Origin: a virus
Virus record (IMG/VR): IMGVR_UViG_3300032240_000470
Location: 1-20,994 of that record
Length of the DNA: 20,994 nt
Reading direction: 5' to 3' (one strand)
Notes under the pieces: model-generated
Database searches by the model: none
Told to the model about the DNA's origin: nothing
What the model saw: the letters and a program-made list of their open reading frames with translations, nothing else
Shown: piece after piece, positions 1-20,663 of the stretch
How positions within the stretch are numbered: the stretch's first letter is position 1
Layout of the letters: every line of letters begins with the position of its first letter
Position numbers and translations under genes: made by a program

Positions 1-480
1 AGTAGTAGTAGCTGATACAATTCTTGATCCGTTGTCAAAGTCTATACTCCCTTTGTTATAACTCACAACCCCTGATCTGATGTAGTCAGGGCATAATTCG
101 TATCCATAACGGATACGTTGCATAATTTCCTGTGAACCTGTGTATTTGTGTGCGGCCACTAGGATGGTTTGATCCGGATGGAACATGGCGAACCAAAGCA
201 GATAAGCTGATGCACAAGTGGTCTTGCCGCTTTGACGCGGCAGCATATTGATGTTGAAACGAAAGTCATGATAACTTTGTAACAATCGTTCCTGATACTC
301 ATACGGTTCAAACAGCATCTTGCCTTTGACAGGATGTTGGATGTAGAAAAAGTGTTCGGCAAAGTATTGATACCCGTTGACAGGGTCGGAACATTTTAAC
401 AAATGTTCAACTTGTTCTTCCGTGAACTTTTCTTTGCTGTGAGCTTTTTTGGTTAATACACCATCTAATGATTTTGCCAT
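1..480 (-). CDS. 17: Terminase large subunit, T4 gp17-like (partial, N-terminal 160 codons)
   Basis: This is the DNA-packaging motor ATPase and nuclease; only the N-terminal part lies in the window and the frame stays open to base 1. The sequence shows a Q-motif-like stretch (FEPYEYQERLL, residues 58-68) and a Walker A motif PRQSGKTT at residues 81-88, matching the SRQxGKT form of T4 gp17. The Walker B and the C-terminal nuclease domain would lie outside the window. The start is the ATG at 478-480. It has no Shine-Dalgarno, and a late-promoter-like TGTAAATA ends 5 nt before it. A strong terminator separates it from the upstream 347-aa gene, so it leads its own transcription unit. The identification is secure from the P-loop and from gp16 and gp4 nearby. 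Confidence 0.93.
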   Translation of the reverse strand, partial: MAKSLDGVLTKKAHSKEKFTEEQVEHLLKCSDPVNGYQYFAEHFFYIQHPVKGKMLFEPYEYQERLLQSYHDFRFNINMLPRQSGKTTCASAYLLWFAMFHPDQTILVAAHKYTGSQEIMQRIRYGYELCPDYIRSGVVSYNKGSIDFDNGSRIVSATTT

Positions 481-485
481 ACGCT

Positions 486-493
486 TATTTACA
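486..493 (-). promoter_or_regulatory. Late-promoter-like box (TGTAAATA) before gp17
   Basis: The minus strand reads TGTAAATA, one mismatch from the T4 late -10 element TATAAATA. It lies just after the terminator T-run and 5 nt before the gp17 ATG. With T4-type spacing, transcription would start at or next to the A of the ATG. Position and match are seen; promoter activity is inferred. Confidence 0.55.
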
Positions 494-522
494 TAAAAAA
501 ATAGCCCCCGAAGGAGCTATTT
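494..522 (-). terminator. Rho-independent terminator with C(UUCG)G loop after the 347-aa gene
   Basis: On the minus strand AAATAGCTCC and GGGGCTATTT form a 10-bp stem (one G-U pair) closed by a TTCG tetraloop, followed by a run of T. It lies between the stop of the 347-aa gene and the gp17 start. It should end the six-gene unit that begins at the 331-aa gene. Confidence 0.9.
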
Positions 523-554
523 GGCACTGGAAACAGAGTGCTAACTGCGACGAA

Positions 555-3564: not shown

Positions 3565-4560
3565 TTATCCTGTTCCTACATTAGAGTTAGTGGCTACTGT
3601 AGAATTATTAGTAGACGTTGTTGGAAATTTTGTATCTTGTATCCCGCCAGTGGACTGACTAGGTTGTGCCGTTGATATCCCTAAGTTTGGTGATGTTGAT
3701 ACTTGCTCGGGATTATTTTGATAGGTATTGTTTGTTGCCACTAGATTCGCTAAGAAGCTAGCACTATTATTAGTAACTGATGATGTATTTAAAAAATTAG
3801 GACTTATTGTATTTAAAGAGCCGTTGGGTGCTAATGGGCTTGGAGTAGAATCATAGTGCTCAGCACCGAATCCAATCGGTTCGACCCCCGGTTCAACTAG
3901 ACCTGAATCATAACTTACCGATTCATAGCCTACTGACATAGAAAAATCATTAAAATTTTTATCTTCATAGGCTACTTTATTATGATCCCAACTTTGAATA
4001 ATAGGATTATGTAACGTATAACTAATGTACTCATGTCGGGCCATTTGATAGATTCGAATGTAGTTAAAAAATTGCGTCGTAGCACCGTTATCTAATCCAA
4101 ATCTGTTAGTAATACTGTCAGAATTTCGAATAGCGTTTCTATTATATGCACCTGGTTTTTTAGCAGAAGTCGAGTCTGCAAAATAATAACTATAATAGTT
4201 CTGCCATAGTTGATTAATCAACCCCATGTTATCATCATGAAATACGATTGTCGAACTTTCGTATTTGTGTTGAATTTGTATTTGTTTTTTTCTATTATAC
4301 TGATTAACTTGATCAGTTGCTACAGTAAACTTTGGCAAAGTTACACTCTTGACCAGCATACCTATTTCATTCCCATGTTTTTGCGCAATGTCAATAGTTT
4401 TTAATGTGCCACTGTTAATGCTAAATGTCACATGAAATATCCATTTAGCTTTTGGTGCTAAACGGAACTGATCATCTGCAAACAATCTAGCCGCATGACG
4501 TTGGTCACGCAACAATATATTAGACGAATTTTTTAGTAAGTTGTTAGGTGTAAAGGCCAT
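3565..4560 (-). CDS. Tail-tube-fold protein, T4 gp54/gp19 family (probable baseplate tube initiator)
   Basis: A 331-aa protein. Residues about 35-220 carry features of the T4 tail-tube superfamily: WIFHVTFSIN, then LVKSVTLPKF followed by a YNRKKQIQIQ strand and a STIVFHDDN turn leading into a helix (LINQLWQNYYSYYF). This resembles gp19 and gp54 rather than the true tube gene, which is next door. T4 gp54 is 320 aa, a similar length, and polymerises the first tube ring on the baseplate. Residues about 235-331 are low-complexity and rich in Ser, Thr and Asn, probably disordered. The ATG at 4558-4560 has no Shine-Dalgarno, and an exact late-promoter box ends only 4 nt upstream. gp48 is an alternative identity. 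Confidence 0.7.
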   Translation of the reverse strand: MAFTPNNLLKNSSNILLRDQRHAARLFADDQFRLAPKAKWIFHVTFSINSGTLKTIDIAQKHGNEIGMLVKSVTLPKFTVATDQVNQYNRKKQIQIQHKYESSTIVFHDDNMGLINQLWQNYYSYYFADSTSAKKPGAYNRNAIRNSDSITNRFGLDNGATTQFFNYIRIYQMARHEYISYTLHNPIIQSWDHNKVAYEDKNFNDFSMSVGYESVSYDSGLVEPGVEPIGFGAEHYDSTPSPLAPNGSLNTISPNFLNTSSVTNNSASFLANLVATNNTYQNNPEQVSTSPNLGISTAQPSQSTGGIQDTKFPTTSTNNSTVATNSNVGTG

Positions 4561-4564
4561 ACAG

Positions 4565-4572
4565 TATTTATA
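4565..4572 (-). promoter_or_regulatory. Exact T4 late-promoter box TATAAATA before the tube-initiator-like gene
   Basis: TATAAATA on the minus strand lies between the terminator after gp19 and the ATG of the 331-aa gene. Only CTGT separates box and ATG, so a T4-type start point would fall on the start codon. Confidence 0.75.
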
Positions 4573-4606
4573 AGTATCATAATATGGTCAGATAATGATG
4601 ACCCAA

Positions 4607-4630
4607 TAAAAAACCCACCTAAGTGGGTTA
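4607..4630 (-). terminator. Rho-independent terminator after gp19
   Basis: On the minus strand AACCCAC and GTGGGTT form a perfect 7-bp stem with a TTAG loop, followed by TTTTTTATT. It begins only a few bases beyond the gp19 stop codon and closes the sheath-tube unit. Confidence 0.9.
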
Positions 4631-4634
4631 ATTA

Positions 4635-5276
4635 TTAAGCCGGACTTGAACCGCCAGCACCTGTTACTGCTGTGCCGCGAGTTTGTACGAATCCTGGATT
4701 ACCTAATCCACCTGCTGGAATAATTTGCTGTGCGTTATCATACTGGATTGAAAGATCGATCATTTGTACATCTGCACCGGCATATTTCAATGCTTGATAG
4801 TTTGCGCTATCAACATAGCACCCGTATAATTCCCACTCTTCTAAGACGTTAACAGTTTCTGCGCCGTTTCCGCCGTCGAGCATTTCGATACGTAGCAAGA
4901 ACTTGTAATCACCTGCACTTGCCGCTGAACTTTGTTCAAAGAAATCAAATTGCTTTTGAACTTGTTCACCAACTAGTTTAGTAACAGCGTTAGTTACATC
5001 ATCACGTAGTTTGATTGTTACAGGTTGCCATGTTGGTTTGCCTGCATAGTGAATTTTACTGTTGTAAACTTCGATAGTTTTATCTTCAAATTTTACGTTT
5101 GGACGAGCTGCCTCTGCTACTTGTTTTGTTAATTCAACAGTACTTCCGCTAACACCGAAGTTTTCAAAACTAATTCTAAAACGATAGCTTAGTTTTGGCA
5201 TTAGCATGCCTTGAGTGGCACTGCTTTGATTACTAGCTAGCGGTACTGTGAATCTTGATAATGATGCGATTGACAT
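4635..5276 (-). CDS. 19: Tail tube protein, T4 gp19-like
   Basis: A 213-aa protein forming the inner tube of the contractile tail. It shows the T4_gp19 pattern: YRFRISFENFGV near residues 31-42, a variable loop, KFEDKTIEVYNSKIHYAGKP (about 81-100) and WQPVTIKLRDD, then a WELYGCYVDS segment and the closing IDLSIQYDNA strand. It is longer than T4 gp19 (163 aa), partly through a Gly/Ala/Ser C-terminal tail. It lies 23 nt downstream of the sheath gene, with an AGGAG Shine-Dalgarno about 10 nt before the ATG, and is followed by a strong terminator. Sheath and tube therefore share one late transcript. Confidence 0.92.
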   Translation of the reverse strand: MSIASLSRFTVPLASNQSSATQGMLMPKLSYRFRISFENFGVSGSTVELTKQVAEAARPNVKFEDKTIEVYNSKIHYAGKPTWQPVTIKLRDDVTNAVTKLVGEQVQKQFDFFEQSSAASAGDYKFLLRIEMLDGGNGAETVNVLEEWELYGCYVDSANYQALKYAGADVQMIDLSIQYDNAQQIIPAGGLGNPGFVQTRGTAVTGAGGSSPA

Positions 5277-8200: not shown

Positions 8201-8623
8201 AGCTGTGTCTAACCAATATGTGCCATCTGATGGTGGACTTGTCGGTGCAGTTGAACTAGCTACAAGTTGACCTAGATCTAAATCAGCACGTACAACAAAT
8301 GCACGATTGCTAACTCCTAAGAAACTGTAGGCAGCTTCTAAACCGTATTCGTTTAATTCGCCACCATGAATCGGATTGTTTCCTGAATCTGTATAAAATT
8401 TAGGAATACCAAACGTATCCGACAAATCTTTTTGGCTTGTTAACAAATACACTTTGCCGGCGTTAGCGGCTAGTGTTCCTGGTGCTGTGCCTGTACCAGC
8501 TCCGTTTTGTTTGTTGCTAGCAGAAGCAACGATGAATAAAGGTACTGTTCCAGCGGCTGCGGGTGTATAGAACGATTCGTCTATAACGGTTACGCTTACG
8601 CCTGGTGAACTAAGTTGAGCCAT
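5300..8623 (-). CDS. 18: Contractile tail sheath protein, T4 gp18-like, greatly enlarged
   Basis: A 1107-aa sheath protein against 659 in T4. The N-terminal arm and domain (SSPGVSVTVIDES, residues 5-17; up to about 120) and the C-terminal half (about 690-1107, including NPLTYLTGTGLVAYGQYT and the final VEFIYIPLRLKNTGEI) are typical gp18. Residues about 121-690 hold inserted beta-rich material, including four related units of the form P-T-x-x-x-x-DG-x-L/Y-W followed by a second Tyr/Trp strand (about 126-152, 350-390, 585-617, 641-682). These should project from the sheath surface. An exact TATAAATA promoter and a GGAG Shine-Dalgarno 8 nt before the ATG mark the start. It is the first gene of the sheath-tube unit. 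Confidence 0.95.
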   Translation of the reverse strand: MAQLSSPGVSVTVIDESFYTPAAAGTVPLFIVASASNKQNGAGTGTAPGTLAANAGKVYLLTSQKDLSDTFGIPKFYTDSGNNPIHGGELNEYGLEAAYSFLGVSNRAFVVRADLDLGQLVASSTAPTSPPSDGTYWLDTANTKWGLFQWNSASATTTGGQQFAVQNVTVITDSTLVSSGVPLASYGSIGQYAIVATTTLLKMYMKKYQTDTAAGTWVEVGTSNWVASWPAATGNIQNPTLLTGDSIVVNGTTFTGVTTLSALSTAINANATMISAGIKTAVINNYLNFYSAGTNAGYSSAPTGSITISGTTVAKVGLNQGSNLAATAWIYLAPGLSIAPHTSVPLYKSTDTTTSVNGYPTGSLWIKTTSANLGSDYILQKYNAAASAFQAQSVGLYANGSTALNNLDPTGGGINLAVGKVYVKYNDDEATPALPHFKFYIRSGVGATRIISNIIGASTFTSGTNTFTISESVLGSSTMTTAVSVSFTATAASSDAGLLLTALTAAGLTNVQASLNSDNSITISHKLGGEIRLVDTANDPLSKLFSTTTTANFFANPNGTAKNYIASLWSPTVSGSGFVTVSDSAPTSIPADGQLWYDSALNDVDILINNGTTWQGYLNYTQNQAGGTTCDPAGPIVSATQPTVQSDGTPLANGDLWISTANVEEFPQIYKYNYLTKTWVLVDNTDQTSENGVVFADARWGSSGANSGTAASIVSLLSSNYFDPDCPSPALYPKGMLLWNLRRSGYNVKKYVKNYINTGLRNVVYNNEVMTSYYANRWVSQAPNDYKGAGQFGRHAQRAVVLKALVALCNENQQIRDEESRVFNLMASPGYPEMIQPLVTLNYDRGLTAFVVGDTPARLTPDATTLNNWGQNVNNAADNGDDGLVTTDPYLGVYYPWGYTTDLLGNNIVVPPSHMMLRTIALNDNVAYPWFAPAGVRRGGITNASSVGYIDAQTSEFQVTALNTGQRDTLAGIHVNPLTYLTGTGLVAYGQYTRQLTASSLDRINVARLVVYLRRQLSLLAKPYVFEPNDTITRNEIKQAAEQLLLELVGQRAIYDFLVVCDTSNNTPARIDRSELYLDIAIEPVKAVEFIYIPLRLKNTGEIKGLG

Positions 8624-8655
8624 ATTGTAATCTCCATGATGACATGCTGTTCATG

Positions 8656-8663
8656 TATTTATA
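8656..8663 (-). promoter_or_regulatory. Exact T4 late-promoter box TATAAATA before gp18
   Basis: TATAAATA on the minus strand, 32 nt before the sheath ATG, leaves room for a normal leader with a GGAG ribosome binding site. Just after it ACATG-AACAG-CATGT could fold as a small hairpin near the 5' end of the message. Confidence 0.82.
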
Positions 8664-8697: not shown

Positions 8698-8720
8698 AAA
8701 AAGGCCGCAAAAAGGCTTAA
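8698..8720 (-). terminator. Weak candidate terminator ahead of gp18
   Basis: On the minus strand AAGCC and GGCCTT can pair (one bulged C) around a T-rich loop, followed by TTTTT. It could end the leftward transcript from the dNMP kinase before the gp18 promoter. The stem is short and imperfect. Confidence 0.3.
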
Positions 8721-8723
8721 ATA
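8716..8723 (+). promoter_or_regulatory. Possible late-type box (CTTAAATA) before the HNH-like gene
   Basis: The plus strand reads CTTAAATA (two mismatches to TATAAATA) with AAAT before the ATG, the same 4-nt spacing as at the 331-aa and gp14 genes. The match is weak, and a sigma70-type promoter further upstream is possible. Confidence 0.3.
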
Positions 8724-8727
8724 AAAT

Positions 8728-9054
8728 ATGAGACCTTTATGTACTTGCGGACGATATCCTGTAGCAGTTAATTACTACAAAAATGGAAAACCGTTTTATA
8801 GAAGCCAGTGCGGACCATGTAGTCGTGGTGTTAAACAACCACGATGGGTTAATGCTGGCTATATATTGAAAAATATGTGTGATAAATGCGGAGTTAGATC
8901 ACCGCATAAAGAAATTTTTATGGTTTTTCATGTTGACGGAAATCTTAATAACTGTCAACATGCTAACTTAAAAACTGTATGTTCTAACTGTGCTCGAATC
9001 CTGCATAAAGAGGGAGTTCGCTGGCGTCAGGGCGACTTGATACCAGATCTTTAA
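8728..9054 (+). CDS. Small HNH-like / zinc-ribbon protein
   Basis: A 108-aa protein on the strand opposite its neighbours. Four Cys pairs are visible: Cys5/Cys7, Cys28/Cys31, Cys51/Cys54 and Cys85/Cys88, enough for two zinc sites. Residues 68-88 (H-V-D-G-N, then N-L-K-T-V-C-x-N-C) follow the HNH pattern HxDGNxxN...NLxxxCxxC with His68 and Asp70. The first half (LCTCGRYPVAVNYYKNGK) resembles small zinc proteins found in T4-like cyanophages. Nuclease function is possible but unproven; a DNA-binding regulator is the alternative. Its last 71 nt overlap the 3' end of the dNMP kinase gene on the other strand. No clear Shine-Dalgarno precedes the ATG. Confidence 0.75.
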   Translation: MRPLCTCGRYPVAVNYYKNGKPFYRSQCGPCSRGVKQPRWVNAGYILKNMCDKCGVRSPHKEIFMVFHVDGNLNNCQHANLKTVCSNCARILHKEGVRWRQGDLIPDL

Positions 9055-12083: not shown

Positions 12084-12725
12084 TTATTGTTTAATTTCTT
12101 GTACGGTAATTACGATGTTAGAATCCATACTGTTACCTGCACCTTGGTCTACAGAGTATCCAAAACCTAACGTTTGTGTACTACCTTCTGTAGCCACCTG
12201 AAAACCATACGATATAGCACTAGTAGTACCCGGCGAATCTATCAGTACGCAGGTAAAATTTCCACCGTCCGAACCGTTATTGCCATTGCTCGCACGAGTA
12301 CTATATCCAGCCATACCTGCTCTAGTTGCACCACTATTGCTTTGATTCCCGCAACTGGTAAGATTGTTTGCTGATCCTGATACAACTCTTATAGCATTAT
12401 ATCTAACGATATAGTTTGGCGCAGGCCAACTTGGGTAAGAATGCGCTACGTGATACGATATAACCATTAGACTGTTTGAATACACAGGAGTAATGCTAAC
12501 TCTATAATTACTACTAGGTTCTGCAAATGTATTAGTACATGTTAAACTAACACGAGTAGTTGAGTTAAGATATTGCATTTGCACAACTTGTCCAGCAGAG
12601 AATGACATCTTAGCGGCAGTGGCCGCGGCACTATTAAGTGTAGCTGTTGTAATAGAGCCTGCAGGAACCGGATCTGTTTGTCCGCCCGTAACTGTTCCTG
12701 CTGATCCGTTAAAAGTAATAGCCAT
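12084..12725 (-). CDS. Tandem fibre-tip-like paralog 3
   Basis: A 213-aa paralog of the two genes upstream. Shared features are the MAI-x-F/I-x-GSAGTVTGG-type N-terminus with a TATLNSAAATAAK-like trimerising segment, LNSTTR, SSNYRVSITPVYSNS, an SYH strand, the TTSA...YGF segment and the final NIVITVQEIKQ. It is the most divergent of the three in its distal half. It probably forms a small trimeric fibre or adhesin tip. Its start codon overlaps the stop of paralog 2 (TAATG), and its ribosome binding site lies inside the coding end of paralog 2. Its own C-terminal codons use CAA GAA instead of CAG GAG, so no such site is carried forward. Confidence 0.72.
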   Translation of the reverse strand: MAITFNGSAGTVTGGQTDPVPAGSITTATLNSAAATAAKMSFSAGQVVQMQYLNSTTRVSLTCTNTFAEPSSNYRVSITPVYSNSLMVISYHVAHSYPSWPAPNYIVRYNAIRVVSGSANNLTSCGNQSNSGATRAGMAGYSTRASNGNNGSDGGNFTCVLIDSPGTTSAISYGFQVATEGSTQTLGFGYSVDQGAGNSMDSNIVITVQEIKQ

Positions 12726-12743
12726 TATTGTTTAATCTCCTGA
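12714..12743. repeat. 30-bp repeat at the paralog 2 / paralog 3 junction
   Basis: This 30-bp block covers the end of paralog 2 and the start of paralog 3 and is identical to 13331-13360. It carries the CAGGAG ribosome binding site, the TAATG stop/start overlap and the first codons MAIT. Confidence 0.9.
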
Positions 12744-13342
12744 CAAGTTATAACAATGTTTGCATCCCAGGCAAATCCTCCGCCTGAATATGCGCTATAA
12801 CCATAGTACATTGTTCCACCTTCGGTACCAGCATAAAATCCATATTGTACCGCACTAGTAGTGTTTGGAGCATCATATAATACACAACCCCAGTTGTTCA
12901 TATCATTTCCGTCATATCCGTTGTGTGGGCGATCAGCATAGCCAGACATTAACCATCTACTGCCGTTGCTAACACCTACTGAACTTAGATCAGTTGCACC
13001 TGCACCGCCAATCCAACGTTTGGCACTGAATTTTACAAGATAGTTTACTGCCCAGCTACCGCCCATGTTCCAGGGCACGTGATAGGTAATTTTAATAATA
13101 CTATTGGTGTACAATGGTGTTATACTACATCTATAGCTACTACTAGGTTCACCTAGTGTGTTACCAGGAGCATGAGTAGTTCTAGTTGTTGAATTTAAGT
13201 ACGTTGTTTGTAGTACTGTGCCTGCACCCAATTTAGCTTGGGTAATGGCACTACTGGCTAAGGCATTGGTACCAACAGAGTTTGCTGGTAATCCGCCAGC
13301 GTTAAGTCCTGTAATTGTTGTTCCACTAATAGTAATAGCCAT
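12725..13342 (-). CDS. Tandem fibre-tip-like paralog 2
   Basis: A 205-aa protein paralogous to its neighbours on both sides. It begins MAITISGTTITGL with a Gly-rich turn and a TNALASSAITQAKLG helix typical of fibre N-termini. A beta-rich body follows (LNSTTR, SSYRCSITPLYTNS, ITYHVP, GYDGNDMN, TTSAVQYGFYAGTEGG) and it ends NIVITCQEIKQ. Closest similarity by eye is to paralog 1, mainly in the second half (NGYD-N-DM, GYS, WDANIVI). The start overlaps the previous stop as TAATG, with CAGGAG 11 nt upstream encoded by the Gln-Glu codons of paralog 1. A receptor-binding role is inferred from the fibre context. Confidence 0.74.
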   Translation of the reverse strand: MAITISGTTITGLNAGGLPANSVGTNALASSAITQAKLGAGTVLQTTYLNSTTRTTHAPGNTLGEPSSSYRCSITPLYTNSIIKITYHVPWNMGGSWAVNYLVKFSAKRWIGGAGATDLSSVGVSNGSRWLMSGYADRPHNGYDGNDMNNWGCVLYDAPNTTSAVQYGFYAGTEGGTMYYGYSAYSGGGFAWDANIVITCQEIKQ

Positions 13343-13360
13343 TATTGTTTAATCTCCTGA
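13331..13360. repeat. 30-bp repeat at the paralog 1 / paralog 2 junction
   Basis: Identical over 30 bp to 12714-12743, spanning the end of paralog 1 and the start of paralog 2. It is a likely crossover point for gain or loss of a paralog. Confidence 0.9.
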
Positions 13361-13962
13361 ACCATGATTACAATATTGGCATCCCAACCCCACGAGCCGT
13401 TGCCGTCTCGACTATAACCATAGTAGACTGTGCCGCCTTCTTGGCTGGCATAAAATCCATATTGTATTGCTGATGTGGTATTAGGTAAATCAATAACTTG
13501 ATATGCCCATACCTGCATGTCATTATAGTCATAACCATTGCCGGGGCGTTGATGATATCCTGCTACTAGCGTTCTAGTGCCATTAGTAACACCCACTGAA
13601 CTAATATCTTGTGCTGATCCACTGACAAATCTTTTAGCACTTACACGCATCACATAGTTCGCCGCCCAGTCAGTTCCCCAACCAGTCGGTATATGGTATG
13701 AAATTAACATTACACTATTTGAAAATAATGGCGTAATACTTACTCTATAACTACTACTAACTTCAGACATACTACTACCAGTACCTGTTGCCCTTGTAGT
13801 TGAGTTTAATATTTGTGTCTGTACAACTGCACCAGCATACCCCATTTTAACACCAGTGGCTGCGTTCGCCGCAAGACTAGTTGTGCTAATTGTTCCTGCT
13901 GAAAATCCATCAGTGCCGATGCCCGATATAGTTCCGCCCCCACCATCTATAACGATTGCCAT
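13342..13962 (-). CDS. Tandem fibre-tip-like paralog 1
   Basis: A 206-aa protein, first of three tandem copies behind the large fibre gene. The N-terminus is Gly-rich (VIDGGGGTISGIG) with the TISTTSLAANAATGVKMG segment that resembles fibre trimerisation starts. The body carries LNSTTR, SSSYRVSITPLFSNS, SYH, NGYDYNDM, NTTSAIQYGFYASQEGG and WDANIVIMVQEIKQ. Trp and Tyr are frequent in the distal half, as in carbohydrate-binding surfaces. The ATG overlaps the stop of the fibre gene by 1 nt (TAATG), with AAAGG upstream in the fibre's Lys-Gly codons. It is probably an adhesin or tip protein carried by the large fibre; this is inferred. Confidence 0.74.
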   Translation of the reverse strand: MAIVIDGGGGTISGIGTDGFSAGTISTTSLAANAATGVKMGYAGAVVQTQILNSTTRATGTGSSMSEVSSSYRVSITPLFSNSVMLISYHIPTGWGTDWAANYVMRVSAKRFVSGSAQDISSVGVTNGTRTLVAGYHQRPGNGYDYNDMQVWAYQVIDLPNTTSAIQYGFYASQEGGTVYYGYSRDGNGSWGWDANIVIMVQEIKQ

Positions 13963-16900: not shown

Positions 16901-17921
16901 TACCGTCAACAATGGCACCAACACCGCCCGAACTTTGTGCTGTACAATCTTTAATATACGGTGATTTATTAGCGATAGGACTTGCTGGATTTAAACGTAG
17001 ATAAACTCCACCAATAGTAGCAGTTGTAATATCATTAGCCGTTGAACCAGCAGTAAATCCTGTCATTCCCTGTAGTAACAACCCTTGTAACATGGTCTGA
17101 TCACTAAGATAAAACATAGTACTTAAATTGTTAGTCACTGGACTTGCATCAGTACTTAAATGTCTAAATGTTAATGTACCACTTGGTGTTGTATCAGGAA
17201 TTGCAGATATTGTTAAGGTAGTACTGTCAACTACGATTGTAACTTTTTGTGCAGATGCAAACCCAGTACCAGTAATAGTCATGCCGACTGCAATACCGCT
17301 AGTACTTGCTACTTTTAAAGTTGTTCCTGAACTGCCAGACGGTGTATAAGTAGTTGATGCTGATCCTAATAATGGCGTGATAACAGTATTACGCATTCCG
17401 TCGCCGACAATAGTAACGTTAGCTGGAACTGTAATAGGTAATTTTTCGTTGTAGGTACCTGCTTTGACATAGATTGTTGCAGGGCCAGTAACTGTATCAC
17501 AGGCTTTTCTTAGAGTTTTAAATGCCGCATTAAGACTAGTACCGTTGTTAGTATCGAGACCCGAGTCATCACTTACATAATAAACATTACCTTCAGCATT
17601 AGGATTACCCCAACTAGGATATCCACTTGAATTAACTGTTAATACTTGTCCAGCAGTACCAATTGGTAATCTTGCATTTCCGCTTGCGCCATAATATGTA
17701 ATATCACCTGCAGTGGTATTTTGACTTGCGCCTTGCGCCATTAGTTGCCAATCAGCAGAAGCTAGATCTGTTGCAAATGTTCCGCTAGTATGTCCTACAA
17801 TACATACATAGCTTGAACCGCCATAACTGACAGCGTCATTGACTACATATGCTGTGGTAGTAGCCCATGGGCCTTTCCAATTTAATCTTATTTTACCTAG
17901 GTTTACTGTGGTTATACTCAT
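13962..17921 (-). CDS. Large tail fibre with beta-helix region and S74 intramolecular chaperone
   Basis: A 1319-aa fibre. Residues 1-62 hold a WKGPWATTTAYVVNDAVSYG-type module like those at fibre N-termini. Residues about 110-420 look like a pectate-lyase-style parallel beta-helix (GTSLNAAFKTL, TIYVKAGTYNEKLPI, VTIVGDGMRNTVI). Residues about 640-1220 are repetitive Thr/Gly/Ser/Asn shaft segments. The last 89 residues are a Peptidase_S74 chaperone: SDARLK gives the Ser1231/Lys1236 dyad, and a C-terminal helix ends the protein. S74 domains trimerise the fibre and then cut themselves off, so the mature fibre should end near residue 1230. It has AGGA 8 nt before the ATG, in an operon behind the 140-aa protein. 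Confidence 0.9.
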   Translation of the reverse strand: MSITTVNLGKIRLNWKGPWATTTAYVVNDAVSYGGSSYVCIVGHTSGTFATDLASADWQLMAQGASQNTTAGDITYYGASGNARLPIGTAGQVLTVNSSGYPSWGNPNAEGNVYYVSDDSGLDTNNGTSLNAAFKTLRKACDTVTGPATIYVKAGTYNEKLPITVPANVTIVGDGMRNTVITPLLGSASTTYTPSGSSGTTLKVASTSGIAVGMTITGTGFASAQKVTIVVDSTTLTISAIPDTTPSGTLTFRHLSTDASPVTNNLSTMFYLSDQTMLQGLLLQGMTGFTAGSTANDITTATIGGVYLRLNPASPIANKSPYIKDCTAQSSGGVGAIVDGSVHGSGYKSMVFWAYNIVMDNGVGIYAKNGGRIEAVSVFTYFAYFSYVASGGGQIRSIAGNSSYGTYGAVSLGYDTTETAVTATVYGGMLTYNNALATGTFAQGETITQATSGAQGVVTSVQTGYLYYKLTSGTFNTTNLVTGGSSGATMTPTVVGGQANYVLVLSSLSAVPQVGASIQFATGDTSAYVISATSTAVVNSVTVYIITLAQQKVTPSTDGTIANIRYNFSLVRLQSHDFLYIGTGGISATNYPNIVAANAVPSNQIVYTFPGRVYYVSTDEKGNFNVGQYFSVNQATGSATLNASAFNLSGLTSLRLGSIGAQLGAQINEFSTDGTLSQNSNLKVPTQNAVTTYLGAAYQSISPATTATYDLGSSSYKWKDIYASGNLNIATGITTSNTGTVSLLNTTATTINFGGAATTLSIGASTGTATINNANVVITGNLTVNGTTTTVNSTTVTVDDINIELGSVASPTDTTANGGGITLKGASDKTIIWDSANNNWTSSENWNIATGKTFKINNVTVLDSSNVLASAVTPTLGGNSTTGVTLGGSGLTTVQIGNNTSAANTVTVGGGITGNTVKIASTAGGTINLSTDVTTGTVNEWASVTSGTVNFANGITTGTLNIAGGSGASNVNISNANGTTTIKGTLSFAGSTSGTVKFIAPATAGTQSYTLPTAVPVSDGLALVSTTGGVLSWSAAGATLADDTSTTTLYPVLSTSATGSLTSAKTTASKLTFNASSGNLSATQLTGTIQTASQPNITTLGGVTSIGASGSATITGTLQTAAQTNITSVGTLSSLTVSGTSGVTSFTGTTSLGLTVRGSTSSNDYSGIDFRSTNGNSGSNAIARIAVIAAGSGSSMLFGTSNSYGSGITNTGMTLDYSGNVTVAGTITSNSDARLKTNVETITGALDKVLALRGVMYDRISTGAHEMGTIAQEVEQVVPELVFTDADGIKSVAYANTVALLIEAIKEQQKQIDELKGKI

Positions 17922-17943
17922 TTTTTATCCTGTATTCCAATAT

Positions 17944-18366
17944 TTAGCTGGTGAATGTAACTATTAAATTACCGCTGGCGTTGACACTGTAATTATATTT
18001 GTCAGTGCCCAAATCAGTAGTATAATATACATCTGTTCCGTTGCTGTCTTGCAAGTCTATATTTGTATCAGTGACTTGATAGTACATTAAGTCGCCATTG
18101 GCAGCTACTGAAAAAGCATGTAATACGTTTGTAACTGAAACTGTAATAGTAATGTCAGCAGTACCATCAAATGGAATATTATTAATATTACGTGCTGTGG
18201 CTAATTTTGTAGTTGTGGCGGCATTTCCGGCCAGTACATAATTTTTAAGAACTGCTAGAGTAGACTGTTGGCTAGTTAGTGTACTAGCTACATTAGCGAC
18301 TATTGGAAATACATTAGTATCGGCAAGTACGCTTGTTGATGGTAATTGTGAGATTTTAATTGCCAT
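17944..18366 (-). CDS. Small fibre-associated structural protein
   Basis: A 140-aa protein. The N-terminus MAIKISQLPS-x-x-V-L-A-D-TNVFPIV is a common opening of baseplate- or fibre-anchoring proteins in T4-like aquatic phages. Residues about 54-75 (KLATARNINNIPFDGTADIT) match the repeat unit of many tail fibres. The rest is short beta strands with Asp and Tyr. It may be a short fibre or an adaptor joining the large fibre to the tail. It sits 9 nt after the gp13 stop with an AAGGA Shine-Dalgarno, and precedes the fibre gene by 22 nt. Confidence 0.7.
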   Translation of the reverse strand: MAIKISQLPSTSVLADTNVFPIVANVASTLTSQQSTLAVLKNYVLAGNAATTTKLATARNINNIPFDGTADITITVSVTNVLHAFSVAANGDLMYYQVTDTNIDLQDSNGTDVYYTTDLGTDKYNYSVNASGNLIVTFTS

Positions 18367-18375
18367 AACTATTCC

Positions 18376-19161
18376 TTAACCTAATACAAATGTATAACCG
18401 GTGCCGCCAGCTACATATGTGTCAATTTCTTTATCTAATTTTTCAAATTCTTTTTCAGCTTCACCTTTTAAAGCAGTACCATTTAACGTGATAGCACTTC
18501 CTGGTCCTGCAATATTACCAAATTTACTACGAGCTTCACCTAGCATACTTTTGCAAACTGCTAGGGTATAATCCTTAAGCCATTGTTTAGCATATGTGTC
18601 TTGTAATAAAACCCAATCAGGACGAAAATTATAGCTTTGAATTAAGATCTGTTCGCCTTGGGCAAATGGTCGTTGTAATATATTTAAAATATGACTTGTT
18701 GGCTTCCAACTAAATTCAATATAACTACCAAACATTCTACCGACTAATTTCTGATAGCCTGCAAACATATCGTATGTTGCTAAACCGCCCATCATGCTTC
18801 CGCTCATCAAGTACGTGTTTGTGTACGCCAAGTTGAATGGTTCGAACAATGTTCCACCTGCACCCATACCCGTTCTCGATCCGATTGCTCTACGAAAAAC
18901 CTGTCTAACTGTGATAATTTCATCAGGTAATCTATATTCGTTTTGATCTTGTATTAATTCTAAAAAACTGTAGCTTTCTTCTACTGCGTTGGGACTTTTT
19001 TGACGGTAACGATTTAGTGATCGATCTAGTGCAGTTTCGTAGTGGATAGGATCTAATTCTACTTCAACCATGCCATCGCCCAGCATGGCTTTAACGTAAT
19101 CAAATACCTTATTTCGCTCAATTGTGCTGTTACTTTGTGTTGAAGGTGCTAGATCGTCCAT
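18376..19161 (-). CDS. 13: Neck protein, T4 gp13-like
   Basis: A head-tail connector protein that closes the filled head. The sequence has the T4 gp13 pattern of aquatic phages: VFDYVKAMLGDGMVEVELD, ETALDRSLNRYRQKSPNAVE, an EYRLPDEIITVRQVFRR strand and, near the end, QWLKDYTLAVCKSMLGEARSKFG. The longest frame starts at 19179, but that ATG overlaps the late-promoter-like GATAAATA and would not be transcribed from it. The ATG at 19159-19161 has GGAG 8 nt upstream and is preferred, giving 261 aa. It heads the leftward fibre unit and is divergent from gp14, whereas in T4 genes 13-14-15 are collinear. Confidence 0.85.
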   Translation of the reverse strand: MDDLAPSTQSNSTIERNKVFDYVKAMLGDGMVEVELDPIHYETALDRSLNRYRQKSPNAVEESYSFLELIQDQNEYRLPDEIITVRQVFRRAIGSRTGMGAGGTLFEPFNLAYTNTYLMSGSMMGGLATYDMFAGYQKLVGRMFGSYIEFSWKPTSHILNILQRPFAQGEQILIQSYNFRPDWVLLQDTYAKQWLKDYTLAVCKSMLGEARSKFGNIAGPGSAITLNGTALKGEAEKEFEKLDKEIDTYVAGGTGYTFVLG

Positions 19162-19178: not shown

Positions 19179-19186
19179 TATTTATC
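19179..19186 (-). promoter_or_regulatory. Late-promoter-like box GATAAATA for the leftward gp13 unit
   Basis: One mismatch to TATAAATA. With T4 spacing the message would begin about 19173, at the GGAG site, 12 nt before the preferred gp13 ATG. Confidence 0.6.
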
Positions 19187-19190
19187 TAAC

Positions 19191-19198
19191 GATAAATA
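19191..19198 (+). promoter_or_regulatory. Late-promoter-like box GATAAATA for the rightward gp14-gp15 unit
   Basis: One mismatch to TATAAATA, 4 nt before the gp14 ATG. There is no Shine-Dalgarno between box and start codon. Confidence 0.6.
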
Positions 19199-19202
19199 TC
19201 AT

Positions 19203-20663
19203 ATGCCAAGACTTTCCCTATACAAGCCCGAACGTGGGCAAGATTATAAGTTTATAGATCGCCAAGCTAGCGAGATGTTTCAAGCTGGGGGCACTGATTT
19301 ATACCTGCACAAATATCTAGGACCTACTATAAAAACGTCAGGTACAGCTGATCAACCAGTTTATGCCACGCAAAATGTGGCAAATATACAAGATCTTTTA
19401 TTTTTAGAAAATCGTGATCGTGCGTATGATACTGAAATTTATCGCATACGCGGCATTTATAGTGTGGCAAATATCGACTTTAATCTTAGTCAGTTTGGTC
19501 TTTTTATAGATAACGATACAATTTATATGACCGTTCATATTAATGACATAGTTAAAACTATCGGTCGTAAACCTATTTCAGGCGATGTGTTTGAATTGCC
19601 GCATTTACGTGATGATTTTGCACTCAATGATTTTGACCTAACATTACCACGTTATTATGTAATCGAAGATGTAGGTCGTGCTAGCGAAGGATTTTCAGTA
19701 ACTTGGTACCCACATTTATACAGACTAAAATGCAAGAAAGTCACAGACAATCAGCAATTTGCACAGATTTTTAACCAAGCGGCTAAAGATGCCAACGGCG
19801 ATGATGTTGTTGGAACAACACTTAAAGATCTACTCAGTACCTATAACAAAGAAATAGCGATCAATAACCAAGTGATTGCACAAGCAGAAGCCGATGCTCC
19901 TAAGAGCGGATATGAAACTCGACAGTTTTATACACTAGCTGTTGATGATCAAGGTAAACCTATGCTAGAAACTGCTGACGAATCTACATTAGATGCTAGC
20001 AATGTCAGCAACATCAAGGCTAGTGCATCAAACAGTATACCTGCACGTACTGGTTATACCGGATATTTGGTAGGAGATGGATTTCCTGTTAACGGATATG
20101 ACTTTGGTTTCGGTATTCAATTTCCAGCAAGTGCTCGGCAAGATGATTTCTTCCTAAGAACTGATTTTCTTCCTAATAGATTATTCCGCTTTGATAGTAC
20201 ACGCTGGGTTAAAGTAGAAGATGCAGTTCGAATGAATATGACCAATAGCGACACAAGACAATCTTATATCAGTCAATTTATCAATAACACCAACTATACA
20301 TACAATGATCAAGTTGCGACAGGGTTCTCACATAATCTTTCACCAATAACTGGTCAAGCTGATGGTTATATTTTAACTGGTACTACTGTTGTTTATACCT
20401 TGATTGATTATATTACAGCGGCCTATGTAGTTTTAAAATTAGATATAACTCAATTAGGCTATGCTATTTCAGACTATCCAACAATATTAAGTTCGTATAG
20501 TTATACAGATAGTATAGGAATTATAAAAACTAAACTAAAAATAACACTTCCAGCTGGGCAAACTATACCATATGATGGTGTTTGGTCAGTTTCATTATAT
20601 AATTATAGAGAAGCTCAACGCTCAAGTTTGAGTACTGCTCTTAAACCCAAGGCGGATTTCTAA
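19203..20663 (+). CDS. 14: Neck protein, probable T4 gp14 counterpart
   Basis: A 486-aa protein starting MPRLSLYKPERGQDYKF. The frame is open for another 27 codons upstream, but that stretch is antisense to the gp13 start and crosses the promoter. The core (residues about 64-185) has FLENRDRAYDTEIYRIRG, QFGLFIDNDTIYMTVH, a GDVFELPHLRDD segment and RYYVIEDVGRASEGFS. These resemble the neck/connector protein of T4-like aquatic phages, in which a loop of the form GD(V/I)-x-ELP precedes a strand pair. T4 gp14 is 256 aa; the extra length is a C-terminal half rich in Tyr, Asp and Asn, including a hydrophobic YTLIDYITAAYVVLKLDI stretch. The stop overlaps the start of gp15, which supports gp14 by gene order. 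Other virion roles are not excluded. Confidence 0.68.
   Translation: MPRLSLYKPERGQDYKFIDRQASEMFQAGGTDLYLHKYLGPTIKTSGTADQPVYATQNVANIQDLLFLENRDRAYDTEIYRIRGIYSVANIDFNLSQFGLFIDNDTIYMTVHINDIVKTIGRKPISGDVFELPHLRDDFALNDFDLTLPRYYVIEDVGRASEGFSVTWYPHLYRLKCKKVTDNQQFAQIFNQAAKDANGDDVVGTTLKDLLSTYNKEIAINNQVIAQAEADAPKSGYETRQFYTLAVDDQGKPMLETADESTLDASNVSNIKASASNSIPARTGYTGYLVGDGFPVNGYDFGFGIQFPASARQDDFFLRTDFLPNRLFRFDSTRWVKVEDAVRMNMTNSDTRQSYISQFINNTNYTYNDQVATGFSHNLSPITGQADGYILTGTTVVYTLIDYITAAYVVLKLDITQLGYAISDYPTILSSYSYTDSIGIIKTKLKITLPAGQTIPYDGVWSVSLYNYREAQRSSLSTALKPKADF

Follow-up and report, generated by a model that had tools for sequence, protein, structure and literature searches.

T4-type late promoter boxes 4 to 5 nt before start codons predict leaderless transcription of a fixed set of late genes in uncultured myoviruses

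In a clade of uncultured myoviruses, a fixed subset of late genes carries a T4-type late promoter box 4 to 5 nt upstream of the start codon (here called a near box), and we consider it likely, on the basis of sequence, that gp55-type late promoters produce leaderless mRNAs for these genes. The window that we analyzed is the complete 20,994-base IMG/VR record IMGVR_UViG_3300032240_000470, a fragment of a myovirus genome; gp55 lies outside its 21 kb. The gene order of the window matches that of PA5oct, and among cultured phages the nearest relatives of its tube and tube-like proteins occur in jumbo phages, for example, PA5oct, Atu_ph07, and 121Q. If the prediction is true, the textbook T4 late promoter also sets the translation mode in these phages: a shift of the box by ~12 to 30 bp would toggle a late gene between leaderless and Shine-Dalgarno (SD)-led expression, with the choice of mode fixed for each gene across a large uncultured clade and recurring in a distant cultured phage.

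Late boxes and start codons in the window

The focal gene (3565 to 4560, minus strand; ATG at 4560 to 4558) encodes a 331-amino-acid protein of the tail tube family, with matches to PHROG tail tube families. An exact late box, TATAAATA, lies at 4565 to 4572 on the minus strand (read 4572 to 4565) and is separated from the ATG by the 4-nt spacer CTGT (4561 to 4564); the predicted transcription start (+1) is the next base, the A of the ATG, within a nucleotide. No SD-like tetramer was found upstream of the focal ATG. The rho-independent terminator of the gp19-like gene (4605 to 4629, minus strand), with AACCCACTTAGGTGGGTT-TTTTATT at 4629 to 4612 (fold z = −4.0), ends ~33 nt before the focal box, and every element that the sequence-only reading had claimed for this locus was verified, namely, a perfect box, a 4-nt gap, and an ATG with no ribosome-binding site, directly behind the gp19 terminator. 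The gp19-like tail tube gene itself (4635 to 5276, minus strand) lies downstream of the sheath gene, is SD led, and provides a contrast case. The focal gene had also been called tube-initiator-like. Its identity as a second tube-family protein is upheld by the PHROG tail tube families and by synteny with PA5oct, whereas the initiator role is plausible, not proven; a sequence search of the PDB with the tube-like family returned no solved-structure match. At the N terminus of the focal protein, M1 and A2 are invariant in 15 homologues, including those of PA5oct and Atu_ph07.

Three further window genes have a box at a comparable distance. The 5′ part of terL (1 to 480, minus strand; named from PA5oct synteny) runs off the window, and its ATG (480 to 478) is preceded at 5 nt (AGCGT) by TGTAAATA (486 to 493, minus strand), with a terminator hairpin and T-tract (498 to 523, minus strand) abutting the box. 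On the plus strand, CTTAAATA (8716 to 8723) lies 4 nt (AAAT) before the ATG of an HNH-like gene (8728 to 8730), and GATAAATA (19191 to 19198) lies 4 nt (TCAT) before the ATG (19203 to 19205) of a virion structural gene (19203 to 20663).

Four additional TAAATA sequences, all on the minus strand, are located 17 to 32 nt before genes that have an SD site and are therefore termed leadered here: TATAAATA (8656 to 8663), 32 nt before the sheath ATG at 8623; AATAAATA (2266 to 2273), 18 nt before the ATG at 2247; GCTAAATA (17941 to 17948), 19 nt before the ATG at 17921, as judged from the window sequence; and GATAAATA (19179 to 19186), 17 nt before the ATG at 19161 of the divergent head-tail adaptor gene. 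The adaptor and virion structural genes are separated by back-to-back late boxes that lie 4 bp apart (TATTTATC-TAAC-GATAAATA, 19179 to 19198), an arrangement kept in relatives, with a leadered gene leftward and a predicted leaderless gene rightward. The mechanical ORF starts of these two genes (19179 and 19122, respectively) are probably wrong, with the adaptor starting at 19161 (ATG, with SD site) and the virion gene starting at 19203. We also noted a small inverted repeat, ACATGAACAGCATGT, in the sheath leader (8623 to 8663), between the late box and the SD site.

Box position, not box number, is informative in the window. Sites resembling TATAAATA with at most one mismatch showed no excess (55 seen versus 59 expected), and TAAATA occurs 16 times in total on the two strands. 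By itself, one exact TATAAATA-N4/5-ATG match carries little weight, since 13 of 100 shuffles contained one. However, TAAATA was found exactly 4 to 5 nt before the ATG at 4 of 23 gene starts versus 0.018 expected (P ~4e-9). These 23 starts were picked from the ORF list, and near-box start codons were set by ORF and not by proteomics; those of terL and the virion structural gene agree with conserved N termini in relatives.

Conservation of box position among relatives

Two IMG/VR scans yielded ~150 related loci, in which the TAAATA-to-ATG distance had sharp peaks at 4 nt (112) and 5 nt (189), few occurrences per position beyond this peak, and a second rise at 16 to 19 and 32 to 33 nt. Since related loci share genes, counting was done gene by gene. 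Among 106 orthologues of the focal gene, 103 carried TAAATA 3 to 6 nt before the ATG and 3 had an SD-like tetramer; a T-run was present upstream in 92. For terL, the near box was present in 57 of 64 relatives, an SD-like tetramer in none of the 64, and a T-run 8 to 30 nt before the ATG in 59. The HNH-like gene kept its near box in 60 of 62 relatives; an SD-like tetramer was present in 35 of these 62, at or above the edge of the box and hence outside a leaderless transcript. The virion structural gene had a near box in 31 of 41 relatives. Recurrence at independent transcription units, to which the sequence-only reading had appealed, was likewise verified. The chance occurrence of such boxes in AT-rich sequence, suggested by the shuffles and by the unexceptional number of box-like sites, has a negligible probability; it is refuted by the conservation of the near box in the focal orthologues, and the position controls also argue against it.

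Near boxes were also present in several relatives before genes for a large virion protein after terL, a 79-amino-acid protein, an AlgH-like protein, and a metallophosphoesterase, and before a PAAR protein gene in relative G001. Boxes stand before late genes (terL and the tube-like, virion structural, PAAR, and sheath genes), and some boxed genes, such as those for the metallophosphoesterase and the AlgH-like protein, are not clearly structural. Within each gene family, the codons right after the near-box ATG are conserved from M1 onward.

Other genes are as consistently leadered. All 63 relatives examined for sheath had a far box with an SD site, the neck (head-tail) adaptor gene was leadered in 43 of 44 relatives, and the box of the gene starting at 2247 lay further upstream in 73 of 76. 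The gp19-like gene, downstream of sheath, had a near box in 0 of 98 relatives and an SD site in all 98. In eight relatives, 61 of 414 RTAAATA sequences were located 4 to 5 nt before an ATG and almost none at 8 to 16 nt; a second, broad mode began at 17 nt, where 95 of 126 had an SD site. Spacings of ~8 to 16 nt would give a leader too short to hold an SD site.

To guard against redundancy among loci, we used a test on long single genomes in which TAAATA was counted 4 to 5 nt upstream of the start ATG of every ORF with 80 or more amino acids, with expected counts derived from permutations of the box as controls. The test is conservative because some of these permutations overlap the box itself. 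The sequence-only reading had named the lack of genome-wide enrichment of the box-ATG spacing as a refutation; the test, run on relatives, did not refute it and gave a clear enrichment, with 21 near boxes versus 1.7 expected in G001 (P ~4e-16) and 20 versus 1.3 in G002. The cultured Pelagibacter phage HTVC008M had 13 near boxes versus 1.4 expected (P 3e-9). No near-box excess was seen in T4 (2 versus 1.2) or PA5oct (3 versus 2.5), and unfiltered counts at 4 to 5 nt compared with 8 to 9 nt showed no excess in Atu_ph07, Phosso, 121Q, SCTP-2, syn9, P-SSM2, or KVP40. Of 11 relative contigs, 4 encode a gp55 homologue (PHROG late sigma, E 9e-73), with 47 to 49% identity to PA5oct gp55.

Predicted transcription starts and alternative readings

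T4-type late promoters are recognized by an 8-bp box at −10 with no required −35 element in a gp55-encoding phage; gp55 and gp45 are needed for transcription, which begins at the sixth base after the box. An 8-bp box like TATAAATA is exact at the focal gene in the window and retained as TAAATA in its orthologues, and we infer that it would occupy the −10 position of a real start site. The T4 late box spans −13 to −6 (PMC1524935). With this placement, +1 coincides with the A of the AUG when the gap is 5 nt; when it is 4 nt, as at the focal gene, the canonical +1 falls on the U, so that a leaderless start would need initiation one base early. The base before the near-box ATG is a pyrimidine in 57 of 61 genes, and Y/A is the usual context of a transcription start. 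At leadered promoters, the fifth base after the box is A in 69 of 126 cases and the fourth is T in 54 of 126, a bias that makes the fifth base a plausible start.

A canonical +1 on the U of the AUG could also mean that transcription starts within the gene and that translation begins at a later codon, the conserved ATG not being the start. We judge this highly improbable, as the codons just after the ATG are conserved across relatives in each gene family and a restriction of the gaps to 4 to 5 nt is sensible only if the ATG matters. Our preferred reading is that the T4-type late boxes would be read by the RNA polymerase of the host together with a gp55-like sigma factor of the phage and that, in the near-box subset, transcription would start on, or within ~1 nt of, the A of the AUG. 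Such transcripts would have neither a leader nor an SD site and would be translated via recognition of the 5′-terminal AUG, as is known for leaderless mRNAs (PMC9031893). Other late genes, including those for sheath and the neck adaptor, would use the same box 12 to 50 nt upstream together with an SD leader. Low structure near the 5′ end is a tendency of leaderless mRNAs and not strictly a defining property; by folding energy, the first 40 nt of near-box genes were no less structured than those of SD-led genes (P 0.36).

An upstream promoter or read-through could instead dominate expression of the focal gene, giving a short or long leader, with the near box acting as a minor promoter. No sigma70-like promoter was found on the minus strand of the window between 4400 and 4760, but in many relatives a dyad accompanied by sigma70-like hexamers precedes the focal gene, which makes a second, short-leader transcript possible, and terminators are rarely complete. 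The dyad, similar to ATTAACTACGTAGTTAAT, lies ~7 bp upstream of the focal late box (G001:32187, G002:167495, G006:9703, G007:43142, and G008:41482); the window version, ATCATTATCTGACCATATTATGAT, is degenerate. In four relatives (G001, G004, G005, and G006), gp55 is preceded by a TTGACT-N17-TATAAT promoter whose 17-bp spacer holds a similar dyad, and it is possible that the dyad is a shared operator joining the late sigma gene and the tail gene. We nevertheless regard dominance of upstream transcription as unlikely. A transcript from such a promoter would still have no SD site, and the dyad core is present in only 63 of the 106 focal orthologues, far fewer than retain the near box. Moreover, the near-box pattern repeats at many unrelated genes, and at terL the terminator T-tract lies right against the box in 59 of 64 relatives, leaving no room for an upstream leader.

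We also considered that TAAATA before the ATG is an AT-rich, Kozak-like element of translation initiation and not a promoter. In Bacteroidetes, mRNAs have no SD site and use Kozak-like sequences (PMC6847099). In the present phages, however, the same box precedes SD-led late genes of these genomes by 12 to 50 nt, agrees with the gp55 consensus, stands back to back at the divergent pair (19179 to 19198), and is missing before downstream operon genes such as gp19, and ordinary SD sites serve other genes of the phage. Such an element is therefore also very improbable, if marginally less so than a start within the gene, and a late promoter that yields leaderless mRNAs remains the preferred reading.

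Comparison with known systems and translation genes

T4 late promoters depend on gp55, gp33, and gp45. The present clade resembles T4 in having the same box, TATAAATA, before late structural and packaging genes and gp55 homologues in relatives. It differs in that a fixed gene subset has the box at 4 to 5 nt, by which the leader would be removed, whereas in the T4 genome the distance from TATAAATA to an ATG is never below 13 nt. In addition, the first base of the box is free in this clade (G, A, T, or C), and variants such as TGTAAATA or CTTAAATA are in use. Deinococcus-Thermus promoters are similar in that a core promoter element lies a few base pairs from the start codon, with little or no 5′ untranslated region (PMC12340547). 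There, however, host RpoD acts on a TANNNT −10 motif adjoining the ORF (PMC12340547), while here the element is a phage late-sigma box in a virus and the late genes divide by gene into predicted leaderless and leadered classes.

A parallel in spacing comes from HTVC008M, a cultured T4-type phage in which 13 ATGs that are annotated starts have a box, 12 of them at a distance of exactly 5 nt and 1 of 4 nt, mostly at head, tail, and baseplate genes. This phage encodes bS21 and a late sigma factor; it belongs to a distant family, and its box is followed mostly by GT, with gaps that are nearly all 5 nt. In pelagimyophages, late promoters were reported to be undetectable with existing methods (PMC7029224), which our prediction, if true, would account for.

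PA5oct, a Pseudomonas jumbo phage of the Arenbergviridae, offers the closest cultured synteny, sharing the order adaptor, kinase, sheath, tube, tube-like, head closure, and terL, as well as a gp55 homologue and bS21. It differs in having neither an excess of boxes at 4 to 5 nt nor a TAAATA box ahead of the ATG of its tube-like gene. Two PA5oct genes (NC_071039.1) have the spacing nonetheless. At 180252 to 179881 (minus strand), an ATG five codons within the ORF annotated from 180267 has GATAAATA 5 nt upstream of it, which suggests that the start codon should be corrected and that even PA5oct has a gene of the leaderless type; at 144985 to 145854 (plus strand), a structural protein gene is preceded by TATAAATA-CGTGT-ATG. 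Better start codon annotation would be one practical consequence of the prediction. Leaders in phage AR9 measure 26 to 491 nt, although the authors of the AR9 study note that phage transcripts frequently lack a leader. In the open-access literature, to which our search was confined, we found no earlier account of late transcripts without leaders in jumbo or T4-like phages. Late promoters and leaderless mRNAs are each known, and their systematic pairing in T4-type phages is apparently new within that literature.

Both G001 and G002 encode bS21 and a tRNA-Met with a C1:A72 mismatch, which is typical of initiator tRNA (G001:269086-269161 and G002:43271-43344, both minus strand); such a tRNA is also present in PA5oct (270167 to 270243). 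These genes suggest a link to translation that is only a lead, because PA5oct has both. For the same reason, bS21 and the initiator tRNA were rejected as discriminators, PA5oct having both without a leaderless excess. It is doubtful, though conceivable, that these phages run late translation with two classes of mRNA, a fixed leaderless group and an SD-led group, and that late in infection phage bS21 and initiator tRNA would bias host ribosomes in favor of the former. If leaderless late mRNAs are confirmed, they would provide testable ground for asking why viruses carry these two genes. Freshwater phages that encode bS21 were earlier tied to late-stage translation, and the word leaderless is absent from that report (PMC9723584). 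As a means of host assignment, the bS21 sequence gave best bacterial matches of 54 to 56% from mixed phyla.

Two further features were observed. G001 contains an array of 27 tRNA genes (264184 to 276020) and a tmRNA-like gene call (278207 to 278623). In the window, three tandem ORFs of ~205 to 213 amino acids (12084 to 13962) without PHROG matches are alike at their starts and ends and are probably duplicated tail or fiber proteins.
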